The notes: generated by a model from the letters alone, not told the origin. 64,000 bases of DNA from Candidatus Thorarchaeota archaeon (GCA_019057475.1 DXJO01000007.1:1-64000); one strand, 5' to 3'; positions 45,213 through 51,513 are shown, numbered from the stretch's first letter. Numbers and translations are program-made.

Positions 45213-46724
45213 TTACTCCTCCATGGGTTTATCGTCGAATACTTCAGTAGGCCACGACTCCGTGAATTCTTCCGAAGACTTGTCCCCGAGCACATCTGAT
45301 TCCATCGATGGTGTCGCCCAAGTGTCCTCTGTAGGGATTGGTTTTGGCTGGGCAAGTCCGTGTCTAATCAACAGCACACCCACTAAGGATACGATCGCTA
45401 TCCCCGTTAGTGTCAACGGAAAGCCATACATGGGAACGAGCATACCAAATAGTGCGATCTGCGGAATGGCAAAGACAATCGCTACGGTTGGAATGAGCGA
45501 GTAGATGCTGTTACGAATGCGATTCGGAATGACATCCAGGAGCATGCGTTGTGTGAGAATCTCTGCAAATCCGCCAAAGAAGCTCGTAGCGGCAAATGTG
45601 ATGAAAGCAAGGACAATAGGGATGATCGATTGCTGTGGTATGCTCACTATGATCAAGTCGGTGAAAGGCCACAATACATCAATTGTAGGCGCATTTGCCA
45701 GCGGCGGAGGAAAGATATAGGTAATTGCTGCAAGGATTCCAAAGAATAGGAAACCACACGTTTGAAGGAGACGAAAACGGGGTATCCATTTGATGGGCTC
45801 AAATCGTTTTGACCAAATGCCTGACCGCTCCCGTGCTGCGACTCCTGGCAAGAATAAGAGTGTACGATAGCTTGCTACTGCTACGTCGGTAATAAGGTAG
45901 CTAAAGTAGAAAGGAAAGAGAATCAGATTCCCCCAAACCATTATGCTGCTGATTGTTAACATCCCTCCGATGATAAGGTATTTGACAAACTTATCACCGA
46001 ACAGGAAATTCACTCCGGACCTGAGTATTGACAAGTATTCACTTGTGGAAGGGCGTTTCTCTCGGGCTTCTCGAACCTCTGGGAAGTCCACTACATATTT
46101 GAATACTGCAATTGCTACCACCACACAGAGGACAGCCTGGAGCTGAAACACCCAAGCCCTCTGAAATAGCATGGCCAGAATGCTGCCAGGAATCAGTGAC
46201 AGCGTCGCGACTATCCCAAAGACCATTCCAATCCGACCTTGAAAGACACCGTACTGTTTTCTATCAGTGTCCTCAGGCATCGCCGCCCTGTAATTATTGT
46301 CAAACCAAGCACCAAATGCTCCACTCTCTTGCGCCGATGCGAATCCTTGTAGTGCATAGATTACAACCAGAAAGAGGAATGGAGTCGAGCTGGTGACCAG
46401 CGACACCATATAGAATACGACACCATATAGAATGAAGGCTGAAGAGATTATATATCGCTGGCCAAGCCAGTCCCCGATCCCTCCTGTAGGATAGTCGAAA
46501 ATTGTTTGTACCGCCAGCTGAATAACTACAAGAACACCTACCAAGCCCATACCCTGCATAAAGTCGCCGCTCCCCAGAGCCTCTGCTATGAAAATGACGT
46601 AAAACGTTGTTGAGAGCATGACCGTCACGGAAATTATGGGGAAGAATACAATCATGAGCCGAGCCATTCTCATTATCCTATCGTTGGGTTCAGTGAAACC
46701 AAAGAAGTTCGCTAATCTACTCAT
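45213..46724 (-). CDS. MFS transporter, second of a tandem pair
   Basis: 503 residues and about twelve membrane helices. The motif between helices 2 and 3 (Asp-Tyr-Pro-Thr-Gly-Gly-Ile-Gly-Asp-Trp-Leu-Gly-Gln-Arg-Tyr) is the MFS motif A. It aligns along its whole length with the upstream transporter, sharing Phe-Gly-Phe-Thr-Glu-Pro-Asn-Asp-Arg at the start and Trp-Phe-Asp-Asn-Asn-Tyr-Arg in the middle loop. The tail is acidic. The ATG at 46724 overlaps the stop of a 53-codon frame by four bases and has a GGAGGA ribosome site. It is probably an exporter or a facilitator; the substrate is unknown, but the micro-genes upstream make a peptide possible. Confidence 0.82.
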   Translation of the reverse strand: MSRLANFFGFTEPNDRIMRMARLMIVFFPIISVTVMLSTTFYVIFIAEALGSGDFMQGMGLVGVLVVIQLAVQTIFDYPTGGIGDWLGQRYIISSAFILYGVVFYMVSLVTSSTPFLFLVVIYALQGFASAQESGAFGAWFDNNYRAAMPEDTDRKQYGVFQGRIGMVFGIVATLSLIPGSILAMLFQRAWVFQLQAVLCVVVAIAVFKYVVDFPEVREAREKRPSTSEYLSILRSGVNFLFGDKFVKYLIIGGMLTISSIMVWGNLILFPFYFSYLITDVAVASYRTLLFLPGVAARERSGIWSKRFEPIKWIPRFRLLQTCGFLFFGILAAITYIFPPPLANAPTIDVLWPFTDLIIVSIPQQSIIPIVLAFITFAATSFFGGFAEILTQRMLLDVIPNRIRNSIYSLIPTVAIVFAIPQIALFGMLVPMYGFPLTLTGIAIVSLVGVLLIRHGLAQPKPIPTEDTWATPSMESDVLGDKSSEEFTESWPTEVFDDKPMEE

Positions 46725-46882
46725 TCAGTCATTCCTCCATGGATTTCACCCTCTGCCTTGGAAACCGGAATTGAAAGAGTTAGGCCAAGAATCCTTAAGA
46801 CTTCTTGCATAACAGGAAGTCCAATTGACGGATGCCACTCAACTAGTTTCTTTGAACTCGAAGCGGGAATCATTCGTATCAT
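46721..46882 (-). CDS. Small ORF of 53 codons overlapping the second MFS start
   Basis: Met-Ile-Arg-Met-Ile-Pro start (ATG 46882 or 46873), GTGGAG just upstream, and a TGA that overlaps the MFS ATG by four bases. The peptide has an amphipathic to hydrophobic centre (Val-Leu-Arg-Ile-Leu-Gly-Leu-Thr-Leu-Ser-Ile) and an acidic end. It fills the gap between the two MFS genes, which is the arrangement expected of a translated and coupled gene. It could also be an untranslated leader that is open by chance. Confidence 0.4.
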   Translation of the reverse strand: MIRMIPASSSKKLVEWHPSIGLPVMQEVLRILGLTLSIPVSKAEGEIHGGMTE

Positions 46883-46916
46883 TCTCCACTAGGTGGTTAG
46901 GCGGCCCCCAAGGGAG

Positions 46917-48356
46917 CTACTCCGCAGGGACCGCCAGTGAGATAGACTCTGTTTTGGCTATGTCGTCGTGCTTAGCTGGAATCGGGTAGCTTAGACCTTT
47001 CCGAATCATGACAACTCCGATCAAAGCCACGATTCCAACAGATGCTAGAGTCACAGGAAAGCCAGCTGTTGGTATTAGCCAGCCAAACAGCGCAATCTGA
47101 GGGATTGCGAAGATTGTTGCTATTGTAGGAGATAGAGAGTACATGCCGTTCCTGATCTTGTTCGGGATTACATCTAGTAGGATTCTCTGAGTTAGAATCT
47201 CAGCGAACCCACCGAACAATCCAGTCAGCGTGAATGTACACATTATCAATAGCACTGGCAAAACTGAACTAGCTGGCATCCGCATAATGGCAATGGTTGT
47301 GAAAGGTAGAATCACATCGATGATTGCCCCACCTGCGGCAGGGGGAAAGAGAAACATCGTGATTGCCAACACAATGTAGAACAAGAAACCTCCGAACTGA
47401 AGGAGTCGGAACCGCGGAATCCATGTCGTTGGATCGAATTTCCTAGACCAAACGCCAGATCTTTCCTGTGTGAAGATTCCGGGAATGAATAGAATTGTTC
47501 TGAAACTTGATACTGCGATGTCTGAAACCAAATACGAGAAGTATAGAGGGAAGAGAATCAGCTCAAACCATACGAATCCTGCGCTCCATATAACGCAGCC
47601 TCCAATGGTTACGTACATCATGAACTTATTACTGAACAGGAAACTAACTCCAGACTTCAGTAGCGATGTGTACTCGTTCATGGTCGGCTTCTGTCTGGCA
47701 GCCTCTACTTCAGGGAAATCCTGCACCAGACGAAGCACGATTGCAGCTATGACCACGCACAACACTGCTTGAAGCTGGAATACCCACGCCCTGCCGAGAA
47801 GCGCTGCGATGATGCTTCCAGGTATCAGAGCTGCAGTTGCCACGATTTGGAAAAGCATTCCGATTTTTCCCCAAAACACGCCATACTGCTTTCTGTCCTT
47901 ATCACCAGGCATCGCTACTCTGTAGTTATTATCAAACCAAGCATTGAATGAGCCACTGAGCTGGGAGCTTCCAATACCCATCAAAGCATAGAGAGCAATC
48001 AGGAAGACGAAGGGAGTGGTGCTATTAACCAGCGAGACCATGTAGTATGCAAGGCCATAACAAAGGAATGCGGACGCTATCACGTAGCGTTGACCAATCC
48101 AATCGCCTATCGCACCTGTTGGGTAATCCAACAAGGTCTGGACGACCATCTGAATGACGATCAAAAATCCTACGAGCATCATTCCGTCAATGAAGGAGCC
48201 ACCGCCCAAGGCCTCCGCCACGAAGACCATGAAGAAAGTGGTGCTAAGCTGTATTGTAGCAGCCACAACAGGAAGCAGCATAGACATTATCTTAGCTAAC
48301 CGCAGGATCTTATCGTTTGCGTCAGTCAATCCAAAGAAGGTACCTAGTTTGCTCAC
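46917..48356 (-). CDS. MFS transporter, first of a tandem pair
   Basis: 479 residues from GTG 48356, chosen because GGAGGTG lies 6 nt before it and because the protein then starts Met-Ser-Lys-Leu, like Met-Ser-Arg-Leu of its neighbour. About twelve membrane helices and motif A (Asp-Tyr-Pro-Thr-Gly-Ala-Ile-Gly-Asp-Trp) are present. A second conserved loop, Trp-Phe-Asp-Asn-Asn-Tyr-Arg, is shared with the paralogue, as is Gly-Gly-Phe-Ala-Glu-Ile-Leu-Thr-Gln-Arg in the C-terminal half. The gene stands directly after a 68-codon frame and two micro-genes on the same strand. Confidence 0.82.
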   Translation of the reverse strand: MSKLGTFFGLTDANDKILRLAKIMSMLLPVVAATIQLSTTFFMVFVAEALGGGSFIDGMMLVGFLIVIQMVVQTLLDYPTGAIGDWIGQRYVIASAFLCYGLAYYMVSLVNSTTPFVFLIALYALMGIGSSQLSGSFNAWFDNNYRVAMPGDKDRKQYGVFWGKIGMLFQIVATAALIPGSIIAALLGRAWVFQLQAVLCVVIAAIVLRLVQDFPEVEAARQKPTMNEYTSLLKSGVSFLFSNKFMMYVTIGGCVIWSAGFVWFELILFPLYFSYLVSDIAVSSFRTILFIPGIFTQERSGVWSRKFDPTTWIPRFRLLQFGGFLFYIVLAITMFLFPPAAGGAIIDVILPFTTIAIMRMPASSVLPVLLIMCTFTLTGLFGGFAEILTQRILLDVIPNKIRNGMYSLSPTIATIFAIPQIALFGWLIPTAGFPVTLASVGIVALIGVVMIRKGLSYPIPAKHDDIAKTESISLAVPAE

Positions 48357-48562
48357 TACAAGCACCTCCGCTCATGACTGCCATAGAGAACTGCCGTGAC
48401 GCGAGTCCCCTTTGGGGCAAATACTGCGCATTCCACGCAGGCTGCTGCATCTGTCGGTGTTGTTTCACTTCTCATTTCGTAGACCTCACATTTCTTTGGA
48501 CTGGTCACACTATATCCCGTTGATGGGCAATGGTGCCCAATTCTGTGACCACTCGTGACCAT
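48356..48562 (-). CDS. Possible 68-codon gene between micro-gene 1 and the MFS gene
   Basis: Starts at ATG 48562, five bases after the stop of the first micro-gene, and ends with a TAG sharing one base with the MFS GTG. The peptide would have five Cys and no membrane segment. It spans a nested palindrome (48503-48550), so the open frame might instead be a regulatory leader. The tight joints on both sides argue for translation; no family was recognised. Confidence 0.35.
   Translation of the reverse strand: MVTSGHRIGHHCPSTGYSVTSPKKCEVYEMRSETTPTDAAACVECAVFAPKGTRVTAVLYGSHERRCL
48503..48550. promoter_or_regulatory. Nested palindrome GGTCACA...TGTGACC
   Basis: The outer arms GGTCACA (48503-48509) and TGTGACC (48544-48550) enclose TATATC and an inner palindrome TGGGCA-ATGG-TGCCCA (48524-48539). 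Another GTGACC lies at 48555-48560. The same GGTCAC/GTGAC words recur upstream of micro-gene 2 (48985-49013). It could be an operator for the MFS pair or an RNA hairpin. Confidence 0.45.
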
Positions 48563-48567
48563 GCAGT

Positions 48568-48669
48568 TTACCTTCTGTAGGCAAAAGCGTAAGAAACCGC
48601 TTCAGTAGACTGAACCTTTGCGATCTTCTTCAGCACGGATGAATCTCGATTGTTTGATGCTAGGGCCAT
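48568..48669 (-). CDS. Micro-gene 1: 33-residue peptide, paralogue of micro-gene 2
   Basis: The peptide starts Met-Ala-Leu-Ala-Ser-Asn-Asn-Arg, has Ser-Ser-Val-Leu-Lys, then Gln-Ser-Thr-Glu-Ala at 20-24, and ends Ala-Phe-Ala-Tyr-Arg-Arg. Twenty-four of 33 residues equal those of micro-gene 2. At least twelve of these shared residues use different synonymous codons (for example Arg-8 CGA/CGG, Ser-26 TCT/AGC, Arg-32 AGA/CGA), so selection acts on the peptide. GGAGTATGAT lies before the ATG. A minus-strand TATA box (CTTTATATA, 48733-48741) lies further up. It is too short and polar for a membrane protein and its role is unknown. Possible roles are a secreted or modified peptide, a signal, or a small regulator of the MFS genes downstream. 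Confidence 0.7.
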   Translation of the reverse strand: MALASNNRDSSVLKKIAKVQSTEAVSYAFAYRR

Positions 48670-48732
48670 ACTATCATACTCCTAAGTTTGTGTGCCAAAC
48701 CTTTCTGTAGTCCATGGCTTGCACATAAGTCT

Positions 48733-48741
48733 ATATAAAGG
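48733..48741 (-). promoter_or_regulatory. TATA box for micro-gene 1
   Basis: CTTTATATA on the minus strand predicts transcription from about 48711 and a leader of about 40 nt. The leader holds a small hairpin GTTTG-GCACA-CAAAC just before the GGAG ribosome site. Confidence 0.55.
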
Positions 48742-48820
48742 TTTTCTCTCCAAACCATATCCTGTGTAATCGTCTGGAGTTAAAACCCAATCATTCACTT
48801 ATCAGACACCTCTACACAAT

Positions 48821-48928
48821 CTACCTTCGGTAGGTGAATGCAAAGCTGATTGCTTCAGTTGACTGGATCTTCACGATATTCTTGTTCTTGAGCGCTGACG
48901 AGTTCCGGTTGTTAGTTGCTAGAGCCAT
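48821..48928 (-). CDS. Micro-gene 2: 35-residue peptide, paralogue of micro-gene 1
   Basis: Starts Met-Ala-Leu-Ala-Thr-Asn-Asn-Arg-Asn-Ser-Ser and ends Ala-Phe-Thr-Tyr-Arg-Arg, with Gln-Ser-Thr-Glu-Ala at 22-26. Relative to micro-gene 1 it has two extra residues in the Lys-Asn-Lys-Asn segment; the other changes are mostly conservative (Ser/Thr, Val/Ile, Val/Ala, Tyr/Phe, Asp/Asn). GTGAGAT precedes the ATG and a TATA box lies about 35 nt upstream. No signal peptide or cysteine is present. The two stops (TAG and TAA) and all flanking bases differ, so the copies are old and kept by selection. Confidence 0.7.
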   Translation of the reverse strand: MALATNNRNSSALKNKNIVKIQSTEAISFAFTYRR

Positions 48929-48959
48929 TATATCTCACAAGATATCCTCTCAGAATCAG

Positions 48960-48967
48960 TATATAAT
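48960..48967 (-). promoter_or_regulatory. TATA box for micro-gene 2
   Basis: ATTATATA on the minus strand, 32-39 nt before the ATG at 48928. Transcription would start near 48937 with a very short leader carrying GTGAGATAT. Confidence 0.55.
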
Positions 48968-48984
48968 GCGAAGCCACAATTCAG

Positions 48985-49013
48985 GGTCACAGAAAGTGGT
49001 CACATCTTGTGAC
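48985..49013. promoter_or_regulatory. Repeated GGTCAC / GTCACA-TCT-TGTGAC upstream of micro-gene 2
   Basis: GGTCAC occurs at 48985-48990 and 48998-49003, and the second belongs to a perfect 15-base palindrome GTCACA-TCT-TGTGAC (48999-49013). The site is 20-50 bp upstream of the TATA box, where archaeal activators often bind. Similar words lie before the MFS gene. Confidence 0.5.
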
Positions 49014-49107
49014 TATGTAAAGGGAGTCTGACAGTCAAACATATATCTGAACGAGTGATTGATGAATCAGAGGATGAGGGTACAAAGAGCACGCTCTCCT
49101 CTCACTC

Positions 49108-49136
49108 AGAAGACCCACACTGTTTGGGTTCCTTCT
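49108..49136. repeat. Hairpin AGAAGACCCA / TGGGT-TC-CTTCT
   Basis: A 10-bp stem with a two-base bulge and a CACTGTT loop lies between the micro-genes and the transposase remnant. It may be a leftover of the insertion-sequence end or a transcript end. Other bases in 49040-49196 show no gene. Confidence 0.35.
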
Positions 49137-49216
49137 GGCATAAGTCACTTCTCATCCTAGTGAAGGATTACTTCCAATACAGGTCAATGGTATTCCTGTG
49201 CTGACAGTACCTGCAC

Positions 49217-49757
49217 TTGAGTGGTTCTCCCGCCTTCAGCTTGGTGACCTCAATGAGGGTCAGAAACCGACCAAGTGATGATGCAAAGATGTTGATCCCA
49301 ATGCTCGAAGGGATGTGGGCAGATGAGCTTGAGGTGGTCTATGGTGACAAGGCGTACCTGTCGAAGATCAATGTGACCTACATTCACAGTCTGAGTGCAA
49401 AAGCTGTGATTGAACCGAAGAGGGGATTGACTGGGAAGGCTCATGGACACGGGGAGTACGCAAGGCTGGTGAAGGAGTATCCTGGAAATCCCGAGGATGG
49501 AAGGAGAAATACGAGTACGGGAAGAGGAGTCTGGTGGAGAGTGTGTTTGGAGCCGTGAAGGTGAAGTTCGGAGGGATATTGAGGTCAAGGTGATACAACA
49601 GGAGTCTTGTGGAAACCGTGTTCAGCATGATGAAGCTGAGATTCGGGGGAGGACTGAGTTCGAGAAGGTACAGAGAGCAGAGGAGAGAGTTACTCATCAT
49701 AGTGATCCTACATAATATCGGGAGGGTGAACTTCTTGGAGTATGCCGGGAGGTGATT
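49217..49757 (+). pseudogene. Chimeric IS4/IS5-type transposase remnant
   Basis: The readable protein begins in the middle of a DDE transposase (Arg-Pro-Ser-Asp-Asp-Ala-Lys-Met-Leu-Ile, then Val-Tyr-Gly-Asp-Lys-Ala-Tyr with the second Asp). Around 49500 the frame shifts; the new frame gives Lys-Arg-Ser-Leu-Val-Glu-Ser-Val-Phe (the catalytic Glu region) and runs to Leu-Arg-Ser-Arg followed by TGA. After the TGA comes a second, similar Arg-Ser-Leu-Val-Glu-Thr-Val-Phe segment and a tail to a TGA at about 49757. So the C-terminal part is duplicated from two related copies. N-terminal third, frame and stop codon are lost; it cannot be active. Confidence 0.7.
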
Positions 49758-49859
49758 TATTGGACAGAGCTTAAGAAAAGAAGGTTTTAAATAAAACAAT
49801 GATGAGTTAGATAATTGCAATTATTTTTTGTAATTGCAACGAAGTATAATGTGAGAGAA

Positions 49860-50474
49860 ATGAAAGCAAAATTCAAATCCAAATATAAATCTGCAATCTC
49901 TCTAGCGATGTTTTTGGTTTTAGTAAACACCATGGTAATTGCTGCACCCGTGAAAGCCGCTGATCCCAGTCGCATCTTAATGATTGATATCATGGCGATA
50001 GGAGACGATTTTGATGTTCCTGGAGCTAGAAGCTCTATCATAGGTAGGATTGAATACAATAAAGTCACCGGTGAATGTCAGGGACAGGTAGAATTTCATT
50101 TAAAACTCTATGATGAATCAGGTGAGAAAGTTTATTCGATGAAGGGAAAGCTCAAAGACGCGGCAGTTATGGAAATTCCCGCCTATTATTGCAATGTACG
50201 GGACGTCACGTGGACTAACTTATGGCTTGTCATAGGCGAGGGAAAAATTAAAACTACTGATACAGATATCGAGATAGAATATCGAGGGAATCTAATAACC
50301 TTGCCTAATACCGGAGGTCAGTATATCACAATAAACCTCGCTATGCTTGTAAGCCCTAATGGTGAATATATTGGGGGAGTTTGGGAACAAGGAGGATGGG
50401 CTGCTGCAGGAATGTTGGGAGTATTCGGTGCGGGAACCTATTTGACAAAATATATGGAAAAATTGGTCCCATAA
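49860..50474 (+). CDS. Exported protein of unknown function, AT-rich gene
   Basis: 204 residues from ATG 49860, which follows GTGAGAGAA; the frame is open upstream to 49815. A clear signal peptide covers about 1-35 (Lys-rich start, then Ala-Met-Phe-Leu-Val-Leu-Val ending in Ala-Pro-Val-Lys-Ala-Ala). The mature part is mostly beta-strand with two Cys. A Gly/Ala-rich hydrophobic end (Ala-Ala-Gly-Met-Leu-Gly-Val-Phe-Gly-Ala-Gly) might be a short anchor. The gene has clearly more A and T than its neighbours and lies next to an insertion-sequence remnant, which suggests recent transfer. Confidence 0.6.
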   Translation: MKAKFKSKYKSAISLAMFLVLVNTMVIAAPVKAADPSRILMIDIMAIGDDFDVPGARSSIIGRIEYNKVTGECQGQVEFHLKLYDESGEKVYSMKGKLKDAAVMEIPAYYCNVRDVTWTNLWLVIGEGKIKTTDTDIEIEYRGNLITLPNTGGQYITINLAMLVSPNGEYIGGVWEQGGWAAAGMLGVFGAGTYLTKYMEKLVP

Positions 50475-50493
50475 CACCACATCAAGCACGAAT

Positions 50494-51232
50494 GTGCCTG
50501 AAATAAGAATGAGGATTCTTCTCACAAATGAGCCGCGCTATTGGGAAACGCCGGTGAAACCCCCGAAGACAAAAGGTCGTGAGTTTCGGGTTCACAGGGG
50601 TAGGAAACTCTCAAGTAGAATGGACTGGCAGCCAGACACAGCGAAGAGTACCAAGAAAGGAAGAGAGAAGCCAATAAGGCTCAAGAAGGATTATCCTATA
50701 ATCTGGCGTCGATATCAGACCATACAAGGCTCCAAGAACAACGAGCTTTGGTATTTGATGATGAAGGTCTCATGATGCACCTCGCCGCACTTGCACTATT
50801 AGATTGTGACCACAAGATGTGCTTGAAAACGGTTCAATCTCATTTTGTTCACTGGTACTGTAGGTTGACGGATCAGCCAACTAGGAATTGTGGGGGAAAC
50901 ATCACAAAGTACTGCACCACCACAGACAGCAGGATGCCACTCAACACGAGCCCCTTTCCCTTCCCAGTGTTGATGTCAGTGAACCAGAGGATTGCTTCCA
51001 CAAGGACCACGATCACCCCACAGATGGAATGTTCGAGGACACAGATGGCTCCCCAACGGGGTTAGACGATTGGCCTATCGAATGGGTTGACGTGGAAGAA
51101 GAGAAGCACATGCGAGATATGAGATCATGGACCTGTCCCAAATGTTGGGCATCCCTCCTGCCTGACCTTGTTGAATCCATTTTGGCGGGTAGAACTGGGT
51201 CCTGTCCATTCTGTGGCACCACCCTTGGTTGA
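50494..51232 (+). pseudogene. Broken zinc-ribbon gene in three frames
   Basis: Three overlapping pieces look coding but in different frames. 50494-50775 is basic. The frame at 50748 begins Val-Phe-Asp-Asp-Glu-Gly-Leu-Met-Met-His-Leu-Ala-Ala and fades after about 45 codons. The frame at 50888-51232 is acidic and ends with Cys-Pro-Lys-Cys ... Cys-Pro-Phe-Cys-Gly, a zinc ribbon. The most economical reading is one gene broken by frameshifts, but the basic first part may be a separate small gene. Bases 51233-51513 hold no gene; the promoter of the next gene should be there. Confidence 0.4.
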
Positions 51233-51513
51233 GCAATGCATAGATTGCTATTAGATTAAGGCCACGCTGAAAAAGGGAACCGTTTATGTTTACTGGGTCA
51301 AGAAGTAGTTCTCCTACACTACAACGTCACATGTGAGTGAAGGCTGGGTGAAAAAATAAATCGCAAGAGTATTAGACCAAGAGACCCTTGACAACAAATA
51401 CTGACTCTCTGGGCCAGTGTTTCAGTGACACACGAAGTTCTCCATGAACAAACATATTACAGACCATCTTGCGAACCAATGACATACAAACCATCAACGA
51501 GAGGTTGTTAACG

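Follow-up and report, generated by a model that had tools for sequence, protein, structure and literature searches.

What are two very short genes, almost twins of each other, doing at the head of a transporter cluster in an archaeal genome? The question was raised by a stretch of 64,000 nucleotides from Candidatus Thorarchaeota archaeon (GCA_019057475.1 DXJO01000007.1:1-64000), hereafter the window, in which positions 45,213 to 48,928 hold, on the minus strand, the peptide genes P0002 and P0001 followed by two transporter genes of the major facilitator superfamily (MFS). P0002 (48821..48928, minus strand) encodes 35 residues, MALATNNRNSSALKNKNIVKIQSTEAISFAFTYRR, and P0001 (48568..48669, minus strand) encodes 33 residues, MALASNNRDSSVLKKIAKVQSTEAVSYAFAYRR; both belong to a long 'A' type. 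We found that they are part of a hitherto unnamed family of basic peptides of about 30 residues, which is multi-copy and specific to Thorarchaeota. Annotation misses peptides so short; hundreds of copies share one operon plan and, with bactofilin genes, one switch.

The two peptides have 24 aligned residues in common, as the initial annotation had noticed, and 12 of the shared residues are written with different codons in the two genes (proportion of synonymous differences, pS, 0.74; of nonsynonymous differences, pN, 0.15). The same annotation had taken this codon pattern as a mark of selection on protein, and the family as a whole bears this out. The ratio of nonsynonymous to synonymous substitution (dN/dS) in frame was 0.32, 0.27 and 0.31 in three identity bands (216, 66 and 65 pairs pooled), thus about 0.3 and not near one, values that are descriptive because the sequence pairs are not independent; the two shifted frames of the same peptide pairs gave raw ratios of 0.98-1.54. 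The family is protein-coding and under purifying selection. Recent duplication or conversion accounts for part of the near-identity of copies within a genome. A unit of about 410 bp (-90 to +320), 88-98% identical and with unrelated flanks, is common to five copies in one genome and to four in another; in a third genome, two copies are alike only in the promoter and first codons.

A family profile built from 36 members (cut-off E<=0.01) detected P0002 with E 4e-15 and P0001 with E 5e-14, nine copies altogether in the window's genome, and 1-14 copies per genome throughout the window's Thorarchaeota family (47 of 47 genomes, 13 genera), so that homologues in related genomes are well established. 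None of the 181 other Asgard-phylum genomes was matched at this cut-off. Orthologues of both window peptides were found in three relatives (L048, L049 and L050), and the peptide position is syntenic between genera (L045 and L061). A single-peptide query with a loose cut-off matched 46 of 99 related genomes, and a narrower contig search of named records revealed close members at 14 loci, all from Candidatus Thorarchaeota. No in-frame stop codon interrupts the listed profile matches, even though such codons do not halt the search. Chance similarity of P0001 and P0002 was rejected by these family-wide matches and by the codon pattern. No known family had been recognized for the peptides, and indeed the window peptides have no match in Pfam, NCBIfam or PADLOC, nor has the family profile any in PDB. 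IMG/VR, searched with close-relative patterns, contained no viral relative, and a viral origin was rejected on this ground. Titles and abstracts of the literature on Asgard bactofilins and Thorarchaeota peptide operons hold nothing on this peptide system. Six contigs (L042, L043, L046, L047, L051 and L052) stop within near-identical peptide operons, and short-read assemblies therefore probably undercount the copies.

The operon plan was counted in 80 fetched loci, some of them cut by contig ends. Peptide A (about 34 residues) is followed by peptide B (about 29 residues) after a gap of 3-8 nt, nearly always 5-7, in 60 of the 80. A third open reading frame (ORF), C, of about 37 residues, acidic and ending in EVLALEAT or similar, is present at 44 loci and is followed within 60 nt by a run of at least four T at 38 of them; the other 36 loci, including some cut ones, have no C. 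The charges are +4.9 for A, +5.7 for B and -2.4 for C. In the window, no gene closely follows P0002 and no family member follows P0001. At four loci (L107, L130, L136 and L146) a further frame of 30-40 residues seemingly lies between A and a second peptide 256-266 nt downstream. A peptide type ending in about LYYEY(T)R was also observed, before solitary family members or alone behind the palindrome described below, before an MFS gene (L109, L119, L132, L143, L149, L173 and L174).

The C-terminal Arg-Arg, which had been regarded as a feature of the peptide, has a double character. At least 4 nt of AGGAGGTGA were found at the 3' end of all 102 peptides with a follower at 3-8 nt, and at least 6 nt in 59 of these 102 against 10 of 50 peptides not followed; the Arg-Arg codons (CGG AGG, AGG AGA) thus double as the Shine-Dalgarno (SD) sequence of the next cistron, and a purely peptide-level mark was half rejected. 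Several terminal B peptides retain Arg-Arg with codons such as AGG CGC, from which no SD results; conservation therefore extends to the protein end.

The first peptide of 51 operons is preceded by a palindrome, GTCACA-N3-TGTGAC (class 1), exact in 41 and with one mismatch in 10, and its position relative to the ATG is -86 or -85 in 50 of the 51; downstream of it come half-sites (TGTGAC or TGTGGC) and then the TATA box. Summed over the 47 genomes of the family, the exact palindrome occurs at 137 sites against 9 for reversed controls. Operator matches within coding sequence (L166, L171, L189 and C8:81835) were attributed to chance or codon constraint and left out of account. Six exact palindromes exist in the window's genome, three before peptide operons, one in a bactofilin promoter, one in the promoter of a 369-residue membrane protein and one inside a gene. 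The operator of P0002, GTCACAAGATGTGAC (48999..49013, minus strand), is one of the six and keeps the fixed -86/-85 position; its TATA box, GCATTATATACTG (48957..48969, minus strand), is conserved in relatives.

Two other operator types were found. Class 2, GGTTTG-N5-CAAACC, touches the TATA box and recurs before other peptide operons; before P0001 it reads GGTTTGGAGAGAAAACCTTTATATAG (48731..48756, minus strand) and is conserved in four genomes of the genus, and a second site of this class, GGTTTGGCACACAAAC (48686..48701, minus strand), lies near the expected transcription start of P0001. Class 3 is a series of GGTCA(C) repeats at intervals of about 11 nt, terminated by GTGACCA, and recurs at other peptide loci. 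The class-3 operator of the window (48532..48560, minus strand), between P0001 and the MFS genes, is conserved in four genomes, and its pattern GGTCACN{1,4}GTGGTCA is unique in the window's genome; a TATA-like box with GTGACCA (48502..48518, minus strand) belongs to its promoter. Three types are thereby stacked in the window: the palindrome before P0002, GGTTTG-N5-CAAACC before P0001, and the GGTCAC repeats before a 39-residue ORF, MFS1 and MFS2. P0001 and P0002 each have a separate TATA box, in agreement with the promoters first assigned to them.

The palindrome is not limited to peptide operons. It precedes the bactofilin gene (PF04519, 41.6 bits against a curated cut-off of 27.9) at 12 inspected loci of the window's family, and the gene of the 369-residue membrane protein at five. 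Directly upstream of bactofilin, at all 12 family loci (including L192, which is C42 of the window's own genome) and also in Asgard family f9 (L254), lies a gene for an HTH_45 winged-helix protein, a candidate regulator of the palindrome. Neither Pfam nor NCBIfam has a match to the 369-residue protein, whose gene is under the palindrome in two Asgard families; its transmembrane units are repeated and its N-terminal part is rich in Arg (L193, which is C29 of the own genome, and L169, L184, L190, L191 and L251).

Genomes of other Asgard families were chosen by the operator alone, and a subset of their palindrome sites was inspected. Thirty palindromes against one control were found in nine genomes of family f24, and the motif is frequent also in f17 and f9; the family profile finds no peptides of the P0001/P0002 type in these three families. 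The palindrome precedes bactofilins, the 369-residue protein (57% identity) and an MFS gene (40%) there, and it also precedes different basic peptides of about 30 residues, which frequently form tandem pairs. Those of f24 are mutually related (phmmer E down to 6e-9, against 0.01 for the best shuffled sequence), and at two f24 loci a peptide gene lies between the operator and the bactofilin gene. Because of the way in which the genomes were chosen, no other evidence speaks as strongly as this recurrence for a single response that includes both peptides and bactofilin. An exact palindrome before a nitroreductase-like gene was observed in one genome (L182).

What might the response be? The reading that we favour, and that we judge to be evenly poised, is an envelope or scaffold regulon with one common transcription factor, in which the peptides would act as intracellular docking subunits. 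The factor would read an envelope or surface signal via the palindrome, probably as an activator since the palindrome lies upstream of the TATA box, and would switch on the bactofilin scaffold, membrane proteins, transporters and many peptide copies. Inside the cell the peptides might be small adaptor or regulator subunits, their conserved C-terminal segment perhaps docking on a common partner located at the membrane or the scaffold, and the acidic C may pair with or restrain A and B. In Bacillus, the partner of SpoVM, SpoIVA, is a polymer-forming scaffold and an ATPase, and our proposal envisages a role of this kind, with a tiny peptide that works together with such a scaffold at the membrane. 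SpoVM itself is described as an amphipathic curvature sensor (PMC4307972), unlike the Thorarchaeota peptides.

Several points weigh against this reading. About one third of the operons have no palindrome and use the other operator types, the HTH_45 gene was not found beside the f24 bactofilins, and sharing an operator indicates no more than co-regulation and does not demonstrate a common task. The peptides are not amphipathic: compared with shuffled sequences, their last 14 residues have a mean hydrophobic-moment z-score of -0.2 in A and -0.8 in B. Fold modelling gave a helix of low confidence (mean pLDDT 68, pTM 0.28), so that the case for docking comes down to conservation.

A wider proposal, put forward tentatively and with more doubt than the regulon itself, is that the regulon is ancient in Asgard archaea. 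One palindromic switch would control the bactofilin scaffold, membrane proteins, transporters and lineage-specific tandem peptides of about 30 residues as adjustable subunits of scaffold or membrane; between families the peptides would have been replaced or have diverged beyond recognition, with the switch and the other targets kept. The cell architecture of Asgard archaea is of central importance for the question of how eukaryotes arose, and the operator offers a direct handle for seeking the regulator, the signal to which it responds and all members of the regulon.

The transporters of the locus, MFS1 (46917..48356, minus strand) and MFS2 (45213..46724, minus strand, 59% identical to MFS1 by blastp), match PF07690 with 47.7 and 48.0 bits against a cut-off of 33.4, and neither has an NCBIfam match or a PDB sequence match. 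MFS1 has homologues in 39 of the 47 family genomes. The 68-codon frame (48356-48562) initially listed before MFS1 was rejected as a gene, as a 1-nt deletion breaks it in the close relative L048 and it overlies the third promoter. It is replaced by the 39-residue ORF, MRSETTPTDAAACVECAVFAPKGTRVTAVLYGSHERRCL (48356..48475, minus strand), intact in three of three relatives (77-92% identical), which carries the SD of MFS1; the most likely start of MFS1 is GTG 48356, preceded by the SD CGGAGGTG inside this ORF. A 53-residue frame before MFS2 (46721..46882, minus strand) is weakly conserved in the genus, with 45-50% identity in L048 and L049.

A peptide gene was detectable within 1.3 kb upstream at 20 of 32 MFS1 homologue loci (at least 56% identity) from several genera, and an operator at 7 more; 19 more distant homologues included one with a peptide and five, that one among them, with a one-mismatch palindrome upstream, all proportions being indicative because some loci were fetched for holding peptides or operators. 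In genus g5 the stacking order is palindrome, A, GGTCA type, A', B, GGTTTG type and MFS, and MFS paralogues are also under the palindrome. The synteny expected from the window is thus a conserved link across genera. The MFS genes occupy one conserved locus per genome, and the peptides as such seem not to be dedicated to the transporters, since most peptide copies lie elsewhere, without an adjacent transporter.

If the peptides were instead exported without a leader, as antimicrobial or signalling molecules, the MFS proteins would be the exporters, and bactofilin and the membrane proteins would form the producer's envelope response. We consider this unlikely. Phenol-soluble modulins and leaderless bacteriocins such as aureocin A70 are amphipathic membrane-active helices, with a transporter known in the system, and like them the peptides are short, multi-copy and leaderless, encoded by several tandem genes under one regulated promoter (tandem at 60 of 80 loci); the basic charge and the conserved MFS genes at one locus would also fit. 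Unlike them, the Thorarchaeota peptides have a long, hydrophilic and basic N-terminal part, share the operon with an acidic third peptide, mostly adjoin no transporter and show no raised hydrophobic moment. On this last ground, amphipathic membrane peptides, SpoVM-like or modulin-like, were unsupported. The exported or modified peptide of the initial annotation likewise found no support, as none of the peptide copies inspected had a signal peptide or a transmembrane stretch or was accompanied by a modification gene; the MFS genes are the sole feature that favours export as such.

That the peptides bind and tune the MFS proteins as small regulatory subunits, by analogy with bacterial KdpF or AcrZ, seems distinctly unlikely to us. 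KdpF and AcrZ span the membrane as small transporter subunits, and here too short peptide genes are linked with transporter genes: several genera have both in one stacked locus, and MFS paralogues are under the palindrome. The Thorarchaeota peptides, however, have no transmembrane segment and are present in multiple copies per genome, most of them far from any MFS gene, and the f24 peptides accompany bactofilin instead.

A toxin-antitoxin-like module, in which basic A and B would inhibit growth and acidic C would neutralise them, is improbable. The opposite charges, the tight coupling and the dispersed, multi-copy intergenic sites are consistent with it; against it stand the 36 loci without C, some of them cut, the absence of a match to any known toxin-antitoxin family, and a regulon shared with housekeeping-type scaffold genes. 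The type I toxins Ldr and Ibs, of about 20-35 residues, are hydrophobic membrane peptides under antisense RNA control. Their genes resemble the Thorarchaeota ones in being multi-copy, tandem and intergenic, but the Thorarchaeota peptides are hydrophilic and basic, with no hydrophobic run of transmembrane length in the sequences examined, and are encoded in polycistronic operons behind DNA operators.

Pseudo-genes in a mobile 410-bp repeat with incidental open frames, as the near-identical copies in some genomes, the mosaic promoters and the contigs ending inside copies might suggest, are very improbable and largely refuted by the codon pattern, since selection confined to the reading frame rejects a non-coding repeat, and the stop-free matches, the conserved SD and spacing, and the synteny kept between L045 and L061 speak against it as well.

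Upstream of the P0002 operator (class 1), at a distance of 31 bp, the window's genome alone carries an insert of about 2.4 kb (49045-51448). It contains frames like transposase pieces, as judged by eye; its flanks are adjacent in three relatives, and a 9-bp overlap resembles a target-site duplication.
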